Assembly: GCA_013076295.1 (NCBI GenBank)
Contig: RQOL01000361.1
Location: 186,001-250,000 of the forward strand
DNA length: 64,000 bases
Reading direction: 5' to 3'
From: Sanderia malayensis
Taxonomy: Eukaryota; Cnidaria; Scyphozoa; Semaeostomeae; Pelagiidae
Position 1 is the first letter of the stretch, and every line of letters starts with the position of its first letter. Below the pieces are notes generated by a model that saw only the letters and a list, made by a program, of their open reading frames with translations, searched no databases and was not told where the DNA came from. This document shows, piece after piece, positions 26,570 through 45,946 of this stretch. A program made the position numbers and the translations under genes.

Positions 26570-26669
26570 NNNNNNNNNNNNNNNNNNNNNNNNNNNNNNN
26601 NNNNNNNNNNNNNNNNNNNNNNNNNNNNNNNNNNNNNNNNNNNNNNNNNNNNNNNNNNNNNNNNNNNNN
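26570..26669. other. Assembly gap (100 N)
   Basis: Exactly 100 Ns, the usual placeholder for a gap of unknown size between contigs. Base composition changes sharply across it (AT-rich Cys-rich gene to the left, GC-rich low-complexity ORF to the right). Confidence 0.98.
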
Positions 26670-26670
26670 T

Positions 26671-27631
26671 GTCTGTCGGAAAGCCTGAAACTGTTCAACG
26701 CGCACTGCAATCGCACCGGCTGCATCCTCGACACTTACCGATCGACGAACTGTTCGCCGCCACCGCCGCCACTCTATCCAACACAACTTCGGCACCGACT
26801 GCCGCTGCCGTTAGTCCTCCTCCCATCCCTCTCTCCACAACCGCAGCAGCAGCAGCAACAGCATCGAGACCATTTGCCGCTCCTGGCAACAGCGGCGGTG
26901 GTGGCAAAACTAACGGAGACGGTACCGTTGCCGGTATCGGCATGCCAACCGAACGCCAAAAAGACGCCACTTCCTCTGACATTGCCGGCGGTGCTGCCAT
27001 ACTGTCGCCGTCGTCGTCGTCTACAAAAGATCAGAAAAAAAAACACCACGATTATCTGCTGTTCACGTCGTTCATGCACTACGGTCAGTGTCAAAAACCC
27101 TTCATCGACATCTACTGTCACGAAACGCACCAACCTGCCGGCGCCGATCTTGTACACCACATCGTACTCGACGAACACACTAACAAACACAAAGACATTC
27201 ACTTTGTCGTCTCCCACCGCAACAGCCACCATCAGTCCTCACAACAACAACAACAACAAAATAACACAATAAAAACAAAAAAAAAGAAATCGCCTGTTAA
27301 AAAACGCAAACGTACCTCTTTGTCGTCGTCGTCGTTAACAGCAAAAACGAAACGAAAAAAACCACCGACAACAACAGTCAATGATGATGATGATGATGAT
27401 GATGACAACAATGCAAAGAATGCCGAATACTTTTCGTGCGATTCCTGCTCCTCGTCGTCGGCGTCAGTGTCGGTGTCGGTGTCGTCGGCGTCGGCCTCTT
27501 CAGACGAAGAACCAGAAAAAAAAGAACAAAACAAAAAACACAAAAGAACAAAGAAAATACCTTCACGTACTAAAAACACTACTAGCAGTATCATTAATAA
27601 CAACAGCAGCGGTGACACTAATGTCGTTTAA
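26671..27631 (+). CDS. Unrecognised low-complexity protein (5' end in gap), poly-Asp and Ser-rich tail
   Basis: The frame is open from the gap to TAA at 27629-27631, about 320 codons. An Ala/Pro/Thr-rich part is followed by a non-repetitive core with DYLLFTSFMHYGQCQKPFID and HHIVLDEHTNKHKDIHFVVS. After that come poly-Gln, Lys-rich (nuclear-localisation-like), poly-Asp and Ser/Ala stretches. The first Met inside is at 26942, but codons 5' of it look coding, so the true start may be lost. There are no introns. Trinucleotide runs (AAC, GTC, GAT) dominate the DNA. I do not recognise the core. Composition and gene density resemble large DNA virus or mobile-element genes more than the host genes in this window. 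Confidence 0.45.
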
Positions 27632-27747
27632 CAAAAACCAACTCGTATTTATATATCATTTTTCATGCATTGTTCTATAGATGTATAAGCACATTATCAT
27701 CTTTTCTTTCCACACCTGCCTCACACACACACACACGCGCGCGCAAA

Positions 27748-27893
27748 CAATGATACAACAAAAAATTCAATGATACAACAAAAAATTCAATGATACAACA
27801 AAAAAATTCAATGATACAACAAAAAATTCAATGATACAACAAAAAAATTCAATGATACAACAAAAAAATTCAATGATACAACAAAAAATTCAA
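27748..27893 (+). repeat. Tandem repeat, unit AATGATACAACAAAAAATTC
   Basis: About eight near-identical copies of a 20-21-bp unit, preceded by a (CA)n(CG)n dinucleotide tract at 27721-27744. It lies between two + strand ORFs. Confidence 0.9.
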
Positions 27894-27947
27894 TGGAGTA
27901 AAATAGCATCTATTGAATACGCCCACTTCTTTTGTTCGTCTCGCGTA

Positions 27948-27985
27948 GATAAAAAGAGCGCAACAGAAGACGAAAATCAGTCAGT
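27948..27985 (+). promoter_or_regulatory. Probable core promoter: TATA-like GATAAAAAG and TCAGT initiator
   Basis: GATAAAAAG at 27948-27956 lies 30 bases before TCAGTCAGTT at 27977-27985, the spacing of a TATA box and a TCAGT initiator. The next Met (28052) opens the 249-codon ORF. This is inferred from motif and spacing only. Confidence 0.4.
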
Positions 27986-28051
27986 TCTCACTCACTCACT
28001 CACAAGTCACAAGTCGCAAGTCACAAGAAGTCAAGAAGACAAGAAGACAAG

Positions 28052-28801
28052 ATGATCTGCAATGATGATAATGATGAAGACACTGCGACCACTGTTGCTA
28101 ATAGTACTAACCGTACTACTGCTACTGTCACCAAGAGCAGTTCTAAATCCAATACTATGGCTACTGTGGCTACTGCTACTGCTACTCGTTCGGTTTACAA
28201 GATAAAAAGACTCAACAAACAGCTGCAAGCAGCAACCGCCAACACTCGTCGTGTGAAACAAACTCTACGACAAATGCTACAGCTTTTCATTCGCCACAGC
28301 AACCAGAGTGCCGAACTTCTCAAACGAGCAGAAGACAAAAACAAAATTCTCTACTCAACAGTAGCAACACAGATAGAGGTCAACGCAAGACTCAGAGAAC
28401 AGCTCGAACAGCAACCATCACCACCAACAACAGCCACCGACCTCTCACAGAAGTGCTGCTGTTGCTGTCGTCTTCATTCTCACAACAACACCACTGCTGA
28501 TCGTCGTCATCATGTTAGCGGCGGCGGCGGCGACGGCGGCGACGACAAAGACGAAGCAATCAGCATCACATCGTCCGTCGACGATTTCCTCGAAAGCAAC
28601 AACAGCAGCAACAGTGACGACGACGACGACAACATCGAAACATACAATCCTCCCAGCGACGGCTTCTCTCAGAAAATCATGTTCAACATCCCCGCCCGCC
28701 ACGACGACGACGACGACGACAGCCTGATGAAGAAAAGAAAATCTGACAACGATGATTCAATCACTGAAGCACTTCACCAACTTACAGAGAACAACAAGTA
28801 A
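28052..28801 (+). CDS. Unrecognised intact 249-aa coiled-coil protein with low-complexity ends
   Basis: A single uninterrupted ORF from ATG (first Met after the probable promoter) to TAA. Residues about 1-45 are Thr/Ala/Ser-rich. About 46-110 form a predicted coiled coil (KIKRLNKQLQAA, VKQTLRQMLQLFIRHS, EVNARLREQLEQQ). A KCCCCCR cluster and a His-rich patch follow, then Gly- and Asp-rich tracts and a Lys-rich end. A basic-then-heptad pattern is loosely bZIP-like but lacks the family's basic signature. Codons are GC-rich and NNC-biased like the ORFs at 26671 and 33187, suggesting these three share one origin. Function unknown. Confidence 0.5.
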   Translation: MICNDDNDEDTATTVANSTNRTTATVTKSSSKSNTMATVATATATRSVYKIKRLNKQLQAATANTRRVKQTLRQMLQLFIRHSNQSAELLKRAEDKNKILYSTVATQIEVNARLREQLEQQPSPPTTATDLSQKCCCCCRLHSHNNTTADRRHHVSGGGGDGGDDKDEAISITSSVDDFLESNNSSNSDDDDDNIETYNPPSDGFSQKIMFNIPARHDDDDDDSLMKKRKSDNDDSITEALHQLTENNK

Positions 28802-29997
28802 TTACATTTTTTTTCTCCATTCGCATGTTGTAACATTTGCTTTGCATCCTTCGTTTTCTTTGTTCTTGTCTTCAAATTTCTTGACGACATCATACTTAAC
28901 TGTCGATCTTCTTCTTCTTCTTCTTTCTTCTCTTTTTCAACAACTTCAATTGATGGTTTTGCAATTTTTTTTCTTCACGTTGATTTCGCATTCGTTCAAG
29001 CGTCAACAATGAAACATCGCATGACAATTCACGTTCAAACACGTAACTACGGTTTGAACATCCCTAGTTAGGTGTTTGAACATGAATTCGAAAAAGTGTA
29101 TTAATTCACTGTTGGTCTTGTGTGTATTATATTTTTGTTAACTTGCATTTGCGCATCTTCAACTGGTTGCGCTACCAAAAACAATTCACGCTGTTGTGGT
29201 CCATCAATAGCTGTGTCTTGAACGCGCTCAAAAAAAAAAAGTGGTGTCTCATTGTTTATGTTAAGAAACATCTATTTTTTAGAATTGTAGCATAAAAAGC
29301 ATCGGTATCTTTTTTGGCATCAATTCAATTGTTCGTGTTATGCTTTCGTGACTCTTCTATTTGCTTTGTCTTGGTTTTTTGGATCGATTATTTTCATTGG
29401 GGCCAATGCATTGGCATCGATTGTCAATGCATCGACCCCAATGGAAATAACTTGCAAAGTGCTTTTTGTAGCATTTCATTTATGCCCAGTTTGTTTTTAT
29501 TATAAGCAATCGAATTCAGTAATGGTATTCACTTTTGTGTCTTCTTTCGAAAGCCGAAACTTGAGAGAACATTTGAATCTTTTTTCAACAGTGTTTCCTT
29601 TGCTCGTTTCTTTGAATTGATAAAGCATTCTATTGACGCGTTTATGACAGTCTTCTAAATACGTGAATAGGATGCTTTACCAATTTGATGTTAATGCAAC
29701 CTCTACACTGTCAAACACTAGATGATTCGGCATGGAAAAAAATCAGAAAACTATAAGCTTTCTATGGGTTTTTTATTGGCTTTTAGTTCTCTAAATATCG
29801 GCACTTCTTTTCATTTGTTGTTCCATTCGAACCGCGCTTTCACATGACCGCATAGTCTAAATTTATTTGAACAATGCGATCTTTGTCCTGGATGGGTTTT
29901 TTCTCCATTTGCCTGATGGATGATGGGTTTTGTTGTACGAATGGCACTGTTGACATATAATTGAGCCTTCTTCCTGTTCCACTTGCGCTATTTTGAT

Positions 29998-30220
29998 TCA
30001 ACTAGTGTGAGTGATAATTTTTTTTGCCTCTGCGGTACGCTTCCTGATGAAATATCTTACTGCAGTAGCGTCAATTTCGTATGTCGAAAGATACAACCGG
30101 GATTTATTTGTAAATGTCTGACTTGCTTGAACGTCATTATTGTTTACTGCGGATGCATTTGACTTGTCTTTTCCGCAATTCCTTTTCCTCTTATTGTTGT
30201 CATTGGTGAATTCATTAATT
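29998..30220 (-). pseudogene. Coding-like fragment, unrecognised
   Basis: A minus-strand open piece of about 70 codons, hydrophilic at first (EFTNDNNKRKRNCGKDK) and then with a more ordinary stretch (SRLYLSTYEIDATAVRYFI), ending at TGA 29998-30000. Coding-like sequence continues in another frame below 29990, including a CQQCHSYNKTHH motif. No family recognised. Confidence 0.3.
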
Positions 30221-31531
30221 AGGCAATCCTCTACAATTGTTGTCTTCTTTTATCTACATCAGAGTCTTTTTTGGACGGAAAAAACCTTTCGTCTGTTTTC
30301 CCACGTTGTTTTCGCCGAACTTAACAAACAAGCCAAACGGATAGAAAGTGCCTGTACGTCTTATTTTACTTTCCTTGTCAACAATAGCTCTCTATCATTT
30401 GTTAATGGAAAAAGAACTGATAAACAATTCTGTCAATTCATTCAACTTCATCATCTTCATAAGATGTTTACCTGAATAGCAAATCTATACAGCATTCATG
30501 TAGTACTCTTGCGCGCGTTAACTTGTCAATCTGTAAACCTTCATTAGCGTTGATATTTTCCGAGAACATCGCAACATTGTCTCATTTCATTTTTGAAAAT
30601 CATCTTCAAGTTTGACGACTCGCTCTTTTGAAACTCTTGAAAAAACTGTCATCTTTGGTAAATAAGTTAGTAATTGTGATTAAAACTTTTATCATTTTTG
30701 ATAAATAATAGCTCGTTTATCATTATTATTATTATTATGGTAAACCCTTTGCGTAATGCTAACGAATCACTTGTAACGAATCATTGGAAATCCCGCATGT
30801 CTTGAAAGAATCGCGAGGTGAAGCATTTTGATTAGCATCTTCAAAAAAACTCAACATCCATCCACCTTTTCGTATCCTGAGTTTTGTGTGCTACTAGTGG
30901 TTTTTTTCTTTTTTTCCTTTTTTCTTTTGTCGTCACAACGACGTCATATCTGTGCAGCTTTTCTTTGCCCAGTTTATTTGCCAAAGCAATTGTCCACAAA
31001 GACAGACTTGTAAGACGTGTGAACTTGTTGCTTTCACTTGTGTAGTTAAAATAGTATTGAGCTTGTTTTCCAGCATTTCCAAAATTCTTGCATCCAGTAT
31101 GTGCCTGAGTGTGTTTGTTCTCTTCTTGAATGTTGTATTGCATTCACCAATTGGGATTAGTTGCACTATATATATATATGCATCAGTTACATAAGTCAGT
31201 TTTTCATGCTGAACAATACTAGTCCTTTGAATGTTGAAATATGAAAATCCTATCGCCAATTTTCGCTAAGAAACATTGTGACATGATCATCTCCGTTCCT
31301 CATTGTCGTATCTTTGATCGTCTTCCGGGCGAACTTCCTGAGGAAATATTAACGGGCAGGTTAGTTCAAACTCAACCGCAATATTCCTCCTCTTCTTTTA
31401 GATCATTCAGCATTTTGCGTAAATCTTCTTCATTGTTCATTGTTTTTGTTTTTGTAGACGAGCGTTTGCTGATGTGAATAGCGTTTTTGCGATTACTTTC
31501 TTCTTCTTCTTCGGATAATAAAACCATGTTT

Positions 31532-31822
31532 CTACCCAACCGCATCCAATCTGAATGCAAAACAATAAACCTTACCAAAACTTCCATGATCGATAAGTTC
31601 TTGCTTGAACATCGAGTCATTGTCTATAGATTCCGGGTTAGCATCCGATTTTCTGTATACTTTGCCATAACTTCCATGGCCAATAGGTTCTTGTTTGAAA
31701 AAAATCGAATCTGTTGTTATCAGGTTACTCGTTATTTCTTGCAATTTGCCTCTCTTTTGAAAGCTGTCTCTCTCTTTTCGAGAGAGTTCGTTGCATTTAT
31801 TATCGCGTTGTATTATTATCAT
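31532..31822 (-). pseudogene. Fragment with duplicated protein-kinase glycine loop
   Basis: The minus frame contains FFKQEPIGHGSYGKVYRKSD and, about 30 codons later, FKQELIDHGSFGKVYCF. Both match the glycine-rich ATP loop of Ser/Thr kinases (GxGxxGKV). The second copy has Asp in place of the first Gly. The rest of a kinase fold (VAIK lysine, HRD, DFG) is not visible in any nearby frame. It appears to be a broken or rearranged kinase gene, or a short tandem duplication inside one. Confidence 0.4.
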
Positions 31823-33186
31823 TACACATGTCTTCGCATTGCCGACCCGAAACCGTCTTGTCTAATTGACAAACTCTGGTTCTCGCTGCATCGGCATTGA
31901 CTGTGTGTAGTACTTACCTGTCTATCTGTGACCTCTAAATGTTTCAGATGAGTTTTTTCTTCGACATTGTCGTCATCTGTAACTTCCAAGTGTTTCAGAT
32001 TAGTTTTCTTCAAAATCGTCATCATTAGCAGAGCAATGGTGATTGTTTTTCTCCTTCTTCACTACCACCACTATCATCATTATCGTTAGGGCAACGGTGA
32101 TATCCTTCATCATGATTATCGTTAGGACAACGGTGATTCTTCTTTTAGCTTTGTTTTCACTCACAAAAGTTGCTGTAAGCAAGTCGACTTCCTTGTCGTC
32201 CTTTACTCACGGGCAAAAAATCGTATTGTTCACACATCACTTTTTTGTTGATGAAATGTTCAATTGTTCGCATTTTTTCAACTTGCTCTTCCAGCAAATT
32301 CTTTCCTCAATTGATTCTTTAATCATTTACTTAGAGCTCACGCATCTGAGCTTGCATGCGCTTCCAATCCAATCCAATGTTCGTTTCAACCAATCAATCA
32401 ACATTGCATAATTGTCAACAATTGTCAACTTATTTGCAAGTATTCTTCAGGAAATTAGTGAGATCATTTCTTTATTCTGATATTTTCTTGAAACAATCGT
32501 ATACTCTTTTCGCAATAATGGCCTCATTTTGATGAAACATGTGCCAGATTGCTCAGCTGATTTACATTTTACTGCTCGGCAACGGCATCAGTATCGTTCA
32601 CCATCACGAGAAAGGCACTCGTCGTTTACCTAATTCATCACCTATCCTTTGCCGTTTTTTTCTTTTTTTGAAAACAGAAAAATGACAAAATTCAAACCCC
32701 CGCTCTGTCAAAAAAATTTTTTTGACGAAGAACTATTCGATGGCATTTTCACATATCAAATACATCGTTTCAAAACCCATATGCGTATAATGTTTCATTG
32801 TTGGCACTCGAACGAATGTGAAATCAACATCATCATTATCCTAATCACGTTAACTGTTGCAATACTACTACCATCAAAATTAGACTCGCACCTCGGACTG
32901 ACTACTCCACTCTACTCTACTCTACTCTACTCTACTCCCTCCTCCTCCTCATCCTCCTATCATGAATTATTGTAATCATGGTTATTATTGTTGTTGTTGT
33001 TGTGATAATAATAATGCTTATAATGATCATGCAAAAAACAGAACAAAAAACCATTGTCTTTTTTTTTAATCTCTTCCTCCCGCACGCACGCGCACACAAT
33101 AACTCATTGTTCTAATACGACGTAAATAAACCCGTAGGCCACAGTCGCCCATCACACAACAACAACTCGACGACGACAACGACAAG

Positions 33187-34526
33187 ATGCTAACAACAAC
33201 CGCCGCCACCGCACACTCGCGTCTCAGAAAACGTCGACTTTCGTCGTCGACAAAAAAATTCTACTGCCTCAAACCGTTTCGTCACACACTCGACGACTAC
33301 TTGCAAGAATTCGTCACCACGCGCCAAGCCAAACAGGCAACCAAATGGAACATCGTCTCCTACTCGTGGCTGCAACGACACGACCAACTGCTTCCTCTGG
33401 CGCACAGTCGTCGCTTCTGGCACGATCGTCACATCGTCATCGATCCACCACCGCCACCCGCACACGATCAGTGCATACGAGAATACTTCAACGCCTGCTA
33501 CACACAACTTCAACACCAGGTGACGTTCGCCTCCTCGCAGCAGCCTTTCGAGTCGGACTTCACCCGGGCTCTCCTCAAACACGACATCGGCAATCCCCAA
33601 ACTACAGACGACAGCAAAAAGAGAGACGACACATTTTGGCCCTCCATCCAAGAAGAGATACAGTACATGATGCTCCACACGTCACGCGAACGCTACAACA
33701 ACGACTACGAACCGGTTCTCCTCACTCGCAGCCAAGCCTACGTGGAAACAAGCTCTGACGCAGTAGTACTGCATCCGATAATACCGTACGATCTCTCCAA
33801 GATCAGCATCGTCGAATTCAGCAACTGCGTCTGCTTCGTAAAACGCGACACCCCCCTGCAACGAAAGGAATTCAGCCAGCGATCCCGTTGGTTCGCCCAA
33901 CTCGAAGACGACGACGACGACGACGACGACGACAACAAAAACGACGACAAGAACGATGACGAGACGACGATAACAAAAACGCCGGTGTCCGCACTCGAAA
34001 CGTCCGGCTTCGTGACGCCGATGCCGACACTCGAGAGGACTTTGCCGACTTTCGCGTCTGGCTTCGTCTACTCAACCACGCGTACATAGAAATCGAGCAC
34101 AGTTTCCCTTCGCAGAAACACTACCTGAACAAAGACTACATCAGCCCACACTTTCAGCACTACGAATTCCGCTTCTACGGCTTTGAACCCGAACTTTGCA
34201 TACAACTTGCCACCTACTTACAACTACTACCCTTACAAGACAAAGCCTGGTGCAGGATGGACTACTACATCCGCTTTTATCGACCCTACACCAGCTGGAA
34301 ATGTATGCCCACCTTGGAACAAGGCTGCTGCTGCTGCGTCGATTTGGACGCCTGGGGCAACTACACGGTCGACGACATCGATGCCCAATACTTCGTTCGA
34401 GAATGCCTCGAACTCGTGCTGCCCTTCAGAACGCTGCAGGTAAAACAGCCGCCGCCGTTCGCAGCCGCCGCCGCCGCCGCAAACAAACGGAAACAACCTA
34501 GGGCAGATACGGCAAACAAACAATAA
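33187..34526 (+). CDS. Unrecognised protein of about 445 aa, one frameshift near 34000
   Basis: ATG at 33187 follows a CAACAACAACTCGACGACGA-type leader. The first frame stays open to 34089. From about 34000 a second frame carries coding-like sequence to TAA at 34524-34526, so one indel near 33990-34030 (in the GAC-repeat area) probably splits one gene. The N-terminal two thirds is globular-looking (KPFRHTLDDYLQEFV, WNIVSYSWLQRHDQLLPLAH, ILPYDLSKISIVEF-like). A run of nine Asp follows, then a conserved-looking C-terminal part with YEFRFYGFEPELCIQLATYL and MDYYIRFYRPYTSW, ending in poly-Ala and a basic tail. I do not recognise the family. Codon bias matches 26671 and 28052. Confidence 0.45.
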
Positions 34527-34639
34527 CTTTAACTTTTTGCTATATTGTTTTATTATACTACAATAGCTACTGTCATTTTTTTTTTATACTATACCAACAA
34601 TAAAAAACATCATTCGTCTTCCTCTCTCTACGTCTCGTC

Positions 34640-34714
34640 GCCTTGTTAGCTCAGTTGGTAGAGAGCGTCAGTGTCATAGTCTGAAGGTCGTGAGTTCAAT
34701 CCTCACACAAGGTA
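34640..34714 (+). tRNA. tRNA-Met (anticodon CAT, elongator type)
   Basis: The full cloverleaf is readable: acceptor GCCTTGT pairing with ACAAGGT, D stem GCTC/GAGC, anticodon stem TCAGT/TCTGA around the loop GTCATAG (anticodon CAT), variable AGGTC, T arm GTGAG-TTCAATC-CTCAC, discriminator A. The bases from TCAGT to CTCACAC closely match animal elongator tRNA-Met. The only stem defect is a T-T pair at the base of the anticodon loop. A run of eight T's starts at 34718, a normal Pol III terminator. No CCA is encoded. Confidence 0.9.
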
Positions 34715-34768
34715 GGATTTTTTTTCTTTTTCTTATTCCTCGGGACTTTCCCTCGGCACATCGATCGT

Positions 34769-34832
34769 CCTCCTTTTTCTTGCTCCTTTCCAATTAACTT
34801 TGATTAATTGGAAATTAGCAAGGAAAAAGAGG
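34769..34832. ncRNA. Hairpin H1 (pre-miRNA-like, family A)
   Basis: A 64-nt inverted repeat. Arm CCTCCTTTTTCTTGCTCCTT continues into CCAATTAA and pairs over about 29 bases with TTAATTGGAAATTAGCAAGG-AAAAAGAGG, leaving a loop of about six bases. It shares arm sequence with H2 and H3. Confidence 0.7.
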
Positions 34833-34883
34833 CGCCAACAGAAGTACTGCCTGCCTCGTCGTCATCATGCTCGTCATCACATT

Positions 34884-34949
34884 CCCCTCTTATCCCTTGT
34901 TAATTTCGGCCAACTTTGCTTGAACGAAATTTACAAGGGAAAAGAGGCG
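34884..34949. ncRNA. Hairpin H2 (pre-miRNA-like, family A)
   Basis: A 66-nt inverted repeat. Arm CCCCTCTTATCCCTTGTTAA plus TTTCGGCCAA pairs with TTGAACGAAATTTACAAGGG plus AAAAGAGGCG with a few mismatches. Size and arm sequence match H1 and H3. Read on the minus strand, its first arm contains TTTT, a possible Pol III stop. Confidence 0.7.
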
Positions 34950-34998
34950 CCTGCCAGAAGTACTACTACATCATGCTCGTCGTCGTCGTCGTCACATT

Positions 34999-35061
34999 CC
35001 TCTTATCTCTTGTGAAATTTGTACAACTTAGATTGTACGACATTTTACAAGAGATAAGAGG
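34999..35061 (-). ncRNA. Hairpin H3 (pre-miRNA-like, family A), directly 3' of a tRNA-like gene
   Basis: A 63-nt inverted repeat with arms CCTCTTATCTCTTGTRAAAT of about 28 bases and a short loop. On the minus strand it begins at 35061, the base right after the last base (35062) of the tRNA-like gene, with no spacer. It has no run of four T's on that strand, so a Pol III transcript starting in the tRNA-like gene would include the whole hairpin. Confidence 0.7.
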
Positions 35062-35146
35062 TGCCAGAAGTGGGATTCGAACCCACGCATGCTTACGCAC
35101 AGAAGACGAATATCGCCCAACGCCTTAACCACTCGGCCATTCTAAC
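35062..35146 (-). tRNA. Class II tRNA-like gene (Leu/Ser type) with abnormal anticodon arm
   Basis: On the minus strand: acceptor GTTAGAA pairing with TTCTGGC (two G-T pairs), TG, D arm GCC-GAGTGGTTAA-GGC (good A box), a long variable arm near GTGCGTAAGCATGC, and a perfect T arm GTGGG-TTCGAAT-CCCAC (good B box). The anticodon region GGGCGATATTCGTCT does not form a five-pair stem with a seven-base loop and U33. It folds more easily into a tight GGCGA/TCGTC stem. The internal Pol III promoter is intact, but decoding is doubtful. Its 3' end abuts hairpin H3. A pseudogene or a true tRNA with an assembly indel are alternatives. Confidence 0.65.
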
Positions 35147-35152
35147 ACCATC

Positions 35153-35218
35153 CTACCTGTTTGAGAGAATGAAAATCATTCTCTTTAGAAAATGATCTTC
35201 AGTCTCTCAAACAAGTAG
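35153..35218. ncRNA. Hairpin H4 (pre-miRNA-like, family B)
   Basis: A 66-nt inverted repeat. Arm CTACCTGTTTGAGAGAATGA pairs with the downstream TCTCTCAAACAAGTAG over about 30 bases with a few mismatches; the loop is about four to six bases. It shares arm sequence with H5 but not with H1-H3. It lies seven bases upstream (minus-strand sense) of the tRNA-like gene. Confidence 0.7.
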
Positions 35219-35240
35219 CAACACTGATCGTCGAAAAATT

Positions 35241-35306
35241 CCTACCTGTTCGGGAGAATGAATATTACCCTTTGAGAGGTAATTTTCACTCTCTTGAACA
35301 GGCAGG
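35241..35306. ncRNA. Hairpin H5 (pre-miRNA-like, family B)
   Basis: A 66-nt inverted repeat. Arm CCTACCTGTTCGGGAGAATG pairs with CTCTCTTGAACAGGCAGG over about 29 bases. It has the same length and arm motif as H4, so it is probably a duplicate. Confidence 0.7.
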
Positions 35307-35655
35307 AGGGACATTCCCTCTGGTTATTCCCCCGATTTCCCAGCATTCCTTGCGCCTGCGCCCACCTAGCGATGTGCCTCGCAGTGGCACATTCCATTGC
35401 ACCACCATGATGTCATCTCCAACTTTTCCCGCCAATATGACGTCAATTTCCCGCTAACCTCTCTCCCATGCAGCCTCGATACCATCCCAATTAGTGTGCA
35501 CTCAACCTTGGACGAGTGGACCTAAACAGCACCATGTATATATACTACTTTGGTGCAGCTGATTCATCGCGAAAGATGGAATGGCAGCCCATGTAATACA
35601 AGCGAAAGAAGGAGCACGCACGACTACGCATAAGTAAGAGACGTATGTTCATTTT
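35307..35655. other. Intergenic, between the RNA cluster and the viral block
   Basis: No ORF worth calling. TGACGTCAATTTCCCGC at 35440-35456 and a TATA-like GTATATATACTAC near 35535-35547 could belong to a promoter, orientation unknown. Confidence 0.3.
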
Positions 35656-36300
35656 CTATATCGATTTTGGGATGATAGATTTTACACCTTTATAATTATA
35701 ATGTCTTTCTCCCCAATCCTTTACAAACTGGTCATTGATATAGTATTGTCCATAATTTCCAAATTTATCTCGACGACTAGCATGTTGTCCTTCTGTTATT
35801 ACTTTCGGAAATGTTTCTTCTAAAACATAGAATACCTGTCCTGGCCATTTACACGTACTAATTGCATGTAAGAAGTAAATACAATATTCTCCACACACAT
35901 CTGTATCCCGTGCTTGAATTTCTCTCTCTATTTCATTTATTTCATATTTCTTCTGTATTTTTGGAATTTGATGTTGAGCTTGTTGCATCATTCGAAAACA
36001 AAATCGTTGAAATGTGACGTGTGGTTTAAATCCGTATGAATAAAAAAAATAGCAGTGACCTATAACATCAAAATACACCACCAACCAATGTCCAACCCCT
36101 TTTATTGCACTATCTCAATCTTGTGAAAACAGAATAAACGACATAGGAAAATCGCAGTGTAGTACATTTTCAAACCAATCATGAAATAATTTAGTATCTG
36201 CGATAAGTATATTGATTTCCTTTTCTGTTAAAATTTCTTTAAAACTTTCATTTATATCCGGATCTTTTTTACAAATGTTACATATCTCCTCCCCGTTCAT
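35656..36300 (-). pseudogene. Adenain-like cysteine protease of a Polinton/adintovirus, one in-frame TGA
   Basis: One frame from ATG at 36300 to TAA at 35656 reads as a single protein of about 214 codons, interrupted only by TGA at 36115-36117. The catalytic layout of adenovirus-type maturation proteases is visible: GHW with the His just after the stop, an acidic/aromatic YSYGFKPH segment, then QARDTDVCGEYCIYFL, which carries the conserved Gln and the active-site Cys in a CGxYCxxF setting. Such proteases process capsid precursors in adenoviruses, adintoviruses and Polintons. The gene lies just downstream of the major capsid gene on the same strand. Upstream and downstream parts are both coding-like, so the stop is a recent lesion (C to T in a CGA codon would explain it) or an assembly error. 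Confidence 0.75.
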
Positions 36301-45490: not shown

Positions 45491-45946
45491 TTATTTTATC
45501 CTTTTTTTAAATAAAAACTCGATTATATTTTCCACAACTTTCATTACACCCCATCCTTCATCTTTTGCAAATAAATTCATAAACTGTTCCCAATCTTGTT
45601 CTACTGTTCGCATAAATTCGATCAAACATTCTCTCGCCATTTTCAACTTTTCCTTCTTTTCCTCTACTATTTTAGAATACAACATAAAAATACCAACCAC
45701 TCTTCCCCAATTTGTTCCATCAACATTTATTTCAGCTATAATTTCCCTAATCCATTTCTTATCTATCATTCTCCTATCATCCAAATTTTTATACATTGAT
45801 CTTACAAATTGTTCGTTTTTCTCTTTCATTTCATCAACTAATCTCAATAACACTTTAGTTTTCCGATCTAATTCTTCTACTTTCATTTCATTTATTTTAC
45901 ATGCAATTACCTCATCTATCACTATTAAGCTTTGTGCTCGTAACAT
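45491..45946 (-). CDS. Bcl-2-like protein encoded in the viral block, 151 aa
   Basis: An intact all-helical 151-residue ORF. A BH1-type motif is clear at about residues 76-88 (DGTNWGRVVGIF, compare NWGR in cellular Bcl-2 proteins). A BH2-like segment follows at about 118-133 (DWEQFMNLFAKDEGWG). A hydrophobic/basic tail (IIEFLFKKRIK) could associate with membranes but is short for a classic anchor. Length is close to viral Bcl-2 homologues. Bcl-2 homologues block mitochondrial apoptosis by binding pro-death relatives and are known from several DNA virus groups, including some adintoviruses. Activity here is not proven; BH3 and BH4 are not obvious. The two ORFs upstream on the same strand may be diverged relatives. 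Confidence 0.65.
   Translation of the reverse strand: MLRAQSLIVIDEVIACKINEMKVEELDRKTKVLLRLVDEMKEKNEQFVRSMYKNLDDRRMIDKKWIREIIAEINVDGTNWGRVVGIFMLYSKIVEEKKEKLKMARECLIEFMRTVEQDWEQFMNLFAKDEGWGVMKVVENIIEFLFKKRIK

Follow-up and report, generated by a model that had tools for sequence, protein, structure and literature searches.

Positions 34640-35307 of the analysed window (64,000 nt of the scyphozoan Sanderia malayensis, G000:C289:186001-250000, where C289 is the contig label) hold two tRNA-like genes and five strong hairpins (H1-H5; Table 1), and this compact cassette raises the question of what it does and to what kind of element it belongs. The original prediction had taken it for a candidate small-RNA locus beside an endogenous DNA virus, built like the tRNA-microRNA units of murine gammaherpesvirus 68 (MHV68). 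Searches across 184 Mb of host genome uphold a conserved tRNA-plus-hairpin locus of a virus-like element, but not an MHV68-type mechanism as its general mode of action. Instead, part of hairpin H5 recurs in a host TRIM-type gene, and we consider it probable that H5 is a fold-back of this shared sequence within a likely viral element, whose RNA would be diced and would silence the TRIM mRNA. This match is the new result of our analysis and a stronger finding than the tRNA-microRNA layout.

The individual parts of the cassette were all found as originally predicted. ARAGORN and a local Rfam search (57.0 bits) bear out the tRNA-Met-like gene, which aligns with host tRNA-Met copies at C613 and C829 and is not listed by a whole-window Rfam search at the gathering threshold. 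Rfam likewise recovers the class II tRNA-like gene on the minus strand (hereafter tRNA-Leu-like), and all five inverted repeats are present: in each of 10 folds (five hairpins on both strands), none of 200 shuffles folded as well as the real hairpin, with z-scores of -6.2 to -8.8 for the plus strand and -6.6 to -10.0 for the minus strand. Known miRNA families of Rfam stay below their cut-off in the cassette, the best scoring 29.3 bits against a gathering cut-off of 130. Two motifs that we take to be kappaB-like, with a candidate function only, lie within a conserved regulatory region: GGGACTTTCC at 34742-34751 on the plus strand, intact in six of seven aligned copies and one base short in the seventh, and GGGACATTCCC at 35308-35318. 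The former motif also occurs in C787 and, slightly altered, twice in C637.

Table 1. Features of the cassette and of the element that carries it, in window positions.
Feature	Position	Strand	Evidence or remark
Visible part of element	26670-35549		Left side cut by assembly gap (N 26570-26669)
Conserved element ORF (ORF33k)	33187-34526	+	Two frames in window copy; single open frame in L010
tRNA-Met-like gene	34640-34714	+	ARAGORN; Rfam tRNA 57.0 bits; near host tRNA-Met; followed by T8 (34718-34725)
H1 hairpin	34769-34832		Fold; relatives in C101 (L052) and C637 (L055/L056)
H2 hairpin	34886-34947		Fold; resembles H1 and H3; direct repeats at 113-115 nt spacing
TTTT	34940-34943	-	Inside H2; first Pol III-type stop downstream of tRNA-like gene and H3
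H3 hairpin	34999-35061		Fold; adjoins minus-strand tRNA-like gene
Class II tRNA-like gene	35062-35146	-	Rfam 40.4 bits; near host tRNA-Leu(UAA)
H4 hairpin	35153-35218		Fold; resembles H5
H5 hairpin	35240-35307		Loop and plus-strand 3' arm match host TRIM-type gene
Predicted guide, exactly antisense to host TRIM mRNA	35280-35302 (23 nt)	+	Sequence match
Terminal block (214 bp)	35336-35549		Repeated; ends ...GTATATATACTACT

Compared with host tRNA-Leu(UAA), the tRNA-Leu-like gene largely keeps its acceptor and T-arm. Its anticodon arm is replaced by a new stem, which in the predicted fold of the window copy carries a 3-nt UAU triloop and in C686 a longer loop, so that this gene is unlikely to read codons. 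ARAGORN calls a form of it 'tRNA-Arg' at 35060-35138. The version in C624 (L016 27-135) has a 24-bp hairpin in place of the anticodon and variable arms, between the D and T arms, and the window version looks like a shortened form of it. The host's own tRNA-Leu(UAA) and tRNA-Met genes (L009, L031) form tandem arrays that repeat every 162-172 nt or so.

The cassette is common, in whole or in part, to seven aligned genome copies, four of which retain the full order of tRNA-Met-like gene, H1, H2, H3, tRNA-Leu-like gene, H4 and H5; in the 170k copy the tRNA-Leu-like gene is incomplete, and two C686 copies are without the H4/H5 hairpins. Partial relatives occur in C624, C101 and C637, and C787 holds a related ORF followed by a tRNA-like gene and no hairpins. 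Similarity to the window ends at 35549-35550 in seven of the eight loci compared (the eighth, C787, aligns within the ORF only), the flanks diverge past the element end (...GTATATATACTACT, 35549), and the copies occupy distinct insertion sites. Two pairs share their flanks (C886 130k/159k and C686 5059k/5082k) and therefore look like one duplicated insertion each. More generally, assembly or segmental duplication may account for some copies, since the window copy is cut by a gap and C289 also holds a palindromic pair of element copies, head-to-head at 152927-170778 (L012, L072, L013) and meeting at N gaps, which may itself be an assembly artefact. An ordinary, genome-wide MITE family was considered for the hairpins and dropped: among the best candidates scored, H5 has 8 matches and H1-H3 have 20, every one of which lies within an element copy or in C101.

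The terminal block recurs, over more than 200 of its bases, at 18 genome places. At the 10 of these that were fetched the interior differs from that of the window, so the block has two kinds of interior. Eight places with the other interior were translated; most encode very basic proteins, and six encode a protein with a hydrophobic N-terminus. Arginine/histidine-rich, very basic proteins beside the terminal block mark ten loci (L044-L051, L053, L054) as the opposite element end. In C101, the terminal block and a piece of the cassette lie 7 kb apart and face away from each other, an arrangement expected of the two ends of a single element. A second lineage (C637 L055/L056; C607, C608) comprises five near-identical copies, each with a single H1-like hairpin in the corresponding position, and its ORF resembles by eye the protein P0006, which is 44% identical to ORF33k. 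Searches with ORF33k itself gave six relatives, all in EukProt, and its predicted structure was unusable (pLDDT 32.7). The viral contigs hold no relative of ORF33k, no relative of the protein from the other element end and no copy of the element's terminal 21-mer; the visible stretch of the element showed neither a capsid nor a polymerase gene, and the tested element ORFs had no Pfam match to a polymerase. We read the element as virus-like or transposon-like, with terminal repeats, and as likely viral.

Next to the cassette, the original prediction had placed a Polinton/adintovirus-type gene block. Its viral genes are real, including an integrase (rve, 1.4e-7, just below the Pfam cut-off), but the capsid/integrase block runs from 35656 onward and thus lies outside the element, which ends at 35549. 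With compared copies ending at 35549-35550 and the capsid-side ORFs beginning at 35656, we dropped Polinton membership of the cassette, judged on the element part to the right of the gap at 26570. For the major capsid protein (MCP), no relatives were found at E 0.001 among 4187 candidates and none in the viral contigs, and a PDB search gave one chance-level match (E 0.56). The same block carries a minus-strand ORF of the Bcl-2 family (45494-45946; PF00452, 5.5e-10), likely a viral apoptosis regulator, while its four neighbouring ORFs gave no match. PMC11244446 reports endogenous adintoviruses in an animal relative, and the term 'tRNA' occurs nowhere in its text.

What the cassette may do is suggested by H5. 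Its C624 copy matches a host exon (C777:2598637-2598671) in 34 of 35 positions (E 7.2e-7 in the 184 Mb searched), and this shared 35-nt stretch spans the H5 loop and one arm. The window's H5 matches C777 in 31 of 33 positions, 23 nt of which are exact, and a second site in the same exon, 138 nt away, matches it exactly over 22 nt; the C777 site fell short of E 0.001 when the search started from the H5 of the window. Taking a near-exact stretch of at least 21 nt as the mark of a virus-derived RNA that targets a host gene, the first site thus offers 23 nt and the second 22 nt. The gene in question encodes, in this order, a RING domain (1.2e-10), a B-box (4e-6) and a C-terminal internal repeat that contains both sites; the two lie within a 682-aa predicted protein (P0007, EukProt), of which a relative is 39% identical. 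A genome-wide search for the pattern RATTTTCAYTCTCTYRAACAGG with up to two mismatches found 27 places, namely 18 in element copies, two exact ones at C777, one in C655 with one mismatch and six with two mismatches that all carry one identical sequence; the reversed pattern, used as control, had 0 matches. Eleven places match without mismatch, nine in the element and two at C777, which are the sole ones outside it. When 12 hairpin and tRNA sequences were compared with those fetched loci that have no cassette copy, the yield beyond tRNA matches was the H5-TRIM match and 20 nt of tRNA in C787 (E 0.05).

As an RNA, the predicted plus-strand guide would pair with the two TRIM sites at -36.0 and -35.9 kcal/mol, compared to -21.2 kcal/mol for the best of 100 shuffled guides and -15.2 for the best position elsewhere in the TRIM mRNA. 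The guide 23-mer is absent from the viral contigs. It seems likely that H5 RNA would be cut into TRIM-silencing small RNAs because H5 holds a near-exact antisense copy of TRIM sequence. A comparable host source for H1-H3 was sought and rejected: a pattern search with up to one mismatch gave 36 matches, 24 in element copies or relatives and 12 elsewhere, versus 17 for the reversed control, and these 12 non-element places give a longest exact match of 18 nt and another of 19 nt with one mismatch.

Mobile elements are known to capture pieces of genes, and the element might have taken up part of the TRIM gene and folded it back with no function at the RNA level. All eight copies tested hold the TRIM fragment, including the C686 pair, which retains it at 27 of 28 positions without a hairpin, as such neutral capture would allow. 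Yet the 22-nt stretch is preserved at 21-22 of 22 positions in six copies even though C624 is overall just 77% like the window from the tRNA-like gene to H5, and neither the five adjacent hairpins nor the paired changes between hairpin arms fit a functionless fold-back well, so that we judge neutral capture to be unlikely.

These paired changes were scored in two alignments. The one for H4/H5 (A2, 11 rows) omits H4 of 153k, whose letters equal those of the window, and both C686 copies, which have no H4/H5 hairpin; the one for H1-H3 (A3, 13 rows, with H1_130 and H3_153 short at one end) omits several near-duplicates of H1-H3 and the 5059k copy. Among the 11 H4/H5 variants, standard pairs make up 98.2% of pair cells, and 12 cells are changed on both sides, compared to a mean of 4.5 in shuffles (0 of 500 reached 12), and slid controls gave no more than 4. 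Two other counts stand out less clearly than these cells: 14 of 500 shuffles reach the 5 pairs that carry double changes, and 61 of 500 reach the 17 pair types. Examples are GG/CC in the window versus AA/TT in C624 and the host, or A-U in 170k versus G-C in others. The 13 variants of H1-H3 have 17 double-change cells against 7.9 in shuffles, with double-change pairs and pair types not above shuffles (392 and 497 of 500, respectively). Paired changes of this kind could also stem from gene conversion between arms or from relatedness of the copies.

The evidence on the coding strand of the cassette points both ways. On the plus strand, the H5 3' arm is an exact antisense of the TRIM mRNA. Read from the minus strand, the 3' arm pairs with TRIM less perfectly: C886 and C624 show a single mismatch plus one G-U pair, the window shows more, and its minus-strand guide binds TRIM less well (-23.4 kcal/mol). 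The minus strand folds better in 11 of 11 H4/H5 variants and has more wobbles there (27 versus 13 on the plus strand). For H1-H3, the minus strand folds better in 9 of 13 variants, with 9 wobbles versus 10.

The mechanism of the original prediction has RNA polymerase III start in the minus-strand tRNA-like gene and run into H3, with tRNase Z freeing the hairpin. In the window copy, it is favoured by a host-like tRNA gene with the T-arm GGTTCGAATCC, which we take to be a B-box motif, and by two claimed features that hold up in full: there is no spacer between the discriminator base (35062) and the start of H3 (35061), and the minus strand of H3 has no TTTT, the first one downstream being met at 34943. 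The layout also agrees with the excerpted description of the MHV68 TMERs (PMC11499242), in which a tRNA-like gene is followed directly by a pre-miRNA-like stem-loop and clusters comprise several hairpins. However, a minus-strand transcript would take in H3 only because the TTTT at 34940-34943 stops it within H2. Minus-strand runs of TTTT or longer lie within H1 and H2 in seven of seven aligned copies, and H4 and H5 are located upstream of the promoter of the tRNA-like gene. Even the path to H3 is free in just three of nine copies (window, 153k and 130k). It is blocked or absent in the other six: part of the gene is missing in 170k, 159k has a TTTT within the gene, the two C686 copies and C624 have one at most 10 nt past its end, and the C787 gene ends in T5 without a hairpin. 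Zero-spacer abutment and a stop-free H3 thus survive from this proposal, while its reach shrinks to a single hairpin in a minority of copies, and as an account of the cassette we consider it distinctly unlikely. Measured against the same excerpted description, the cassette shares with MHV68 TMERs the tRNA-like gene that directly abuts a hairpin and the clustering of hairpins. Unlike there, read-through would serve one hairpin in three of nine copies, the predicted fold has no normal anticodon loop, the element is of a different kind and one of the hairpins has sequence in common with a host gene.

The hairpins could also act as DNA, in the form of cruciforms close to the end of the element that serve a replication origin or a packaging site; they do lie less than 0.8 kb from the terminus, but this idea leaves the match of H5 to the host and the tRNA-like genes unexplained, two C686 copies do without the H4/H5 hairpins, and we regard it as very unlikely. 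Transfer in the reverse direction, with the host TRIM gene having acquired viral DNA, is most improbable. The match by itself shows no direction, but the host stretch is coding in frame and sits within a longer internal repeat, of which just some 35 nt recur in the element.

We therefore return to H5 as a probable source of small RNAs against the TRIM-type gene. The host gene would have supplied the H5 sequence, and the cassette would be transcribed by RNA polymerase II, although in some copies H3 could instead depend on RNA polymerase III starting at the tRNA-like gene. The Dicer of the host would then cut H5 RNA to small RNAs of about 22 nt, which, once loaded into Argonaute, would pair with the TRIM mRNA and direct its cleavage at two sites, and the virus would gain from this silencing. 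H4, which resembles H5, may be a weaker second copy, and H1-H3 may act on other targets. The host genome has two Dicer-type genes (each with two RNase III domains and PAZ, one also with the Dicer platform) and several Piwi-domain loci. No Drosha-like RNase III pair was seen beyond the two Dicer-type loci in a search that could miss an intron-split gene, and direct dicing of short hairpins would therefore be favoured.

Several known systems share parts of this arrangement. Some plant MIRNA genes arose by inverted duplication of their targets, and as in these genes the similarity of H5 to its putative target exceeds one mature small RNA and runs through the loop; those are host genes, whereas H5 belongs to a parasitic element. 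Adenovirus VA RNA and EBV EBER are short structured non-coding RNAs of DNA viruses, as is predicted for the cassette; neither has an Rfam match in it, and we know of no host-gene copy in either of them.

Reports of viral small RNAs that match a host gene near-exactly are rare according to the excerpted text of PMC4637412, which describes how a small RNA from the Y-satellite RNA of cucumber mosaic virus matches a 22-nt target in CHLI. As in the portrayal given there, a small RNA of a parasite (here predicted) would match about 22 nt of one host mRNA; differences are that the Y-satellite is a plant RNA satellite, while here a DNA element carries a hairpin with two sites in one TRIM-type gene and silencing is predicted. 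In tomato yellow leaf curl virus, an intergenic siRNA silences the lncRNA SlLNR1 through a 25-nt near-exact match (PMC6366713, in excerpt). Common to both cases, within the compass of that excerpt, are a DNA virus (here likely), a non-coding region and a near-exact host match, and they differ in that the plant virus addresses a non-coding target with one 25-nt segment whereas the jellyfish element has a hairpin cluster. Titles and abstract openings of the papers listed, from a literature collection without most subscription papers, name no Polinton or adintovirus locus of tRNA genes and hairpins and no viral hairpin copied from a TRIM gene.

Taken as a whole, the proposal that a lineage of DNA viruses turned a host TRIM gene into a weapon of RNA interference, in the form of a fold-back set among tRNA-like genes and hairpins whose small RNAs would address two TRIM sites, has in our view about even chances of being right. 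If H5 both came from and acts on one and the same gene of the host, the locus would show how such small RNAs can arise in a virus, with the target named outright by the sequence of the hairpin. Going by its family membership, our guess is that the TRIM-type gene is antiviral, and if so, the cassette would speak of an arms race between host and virus at the level of RNA.
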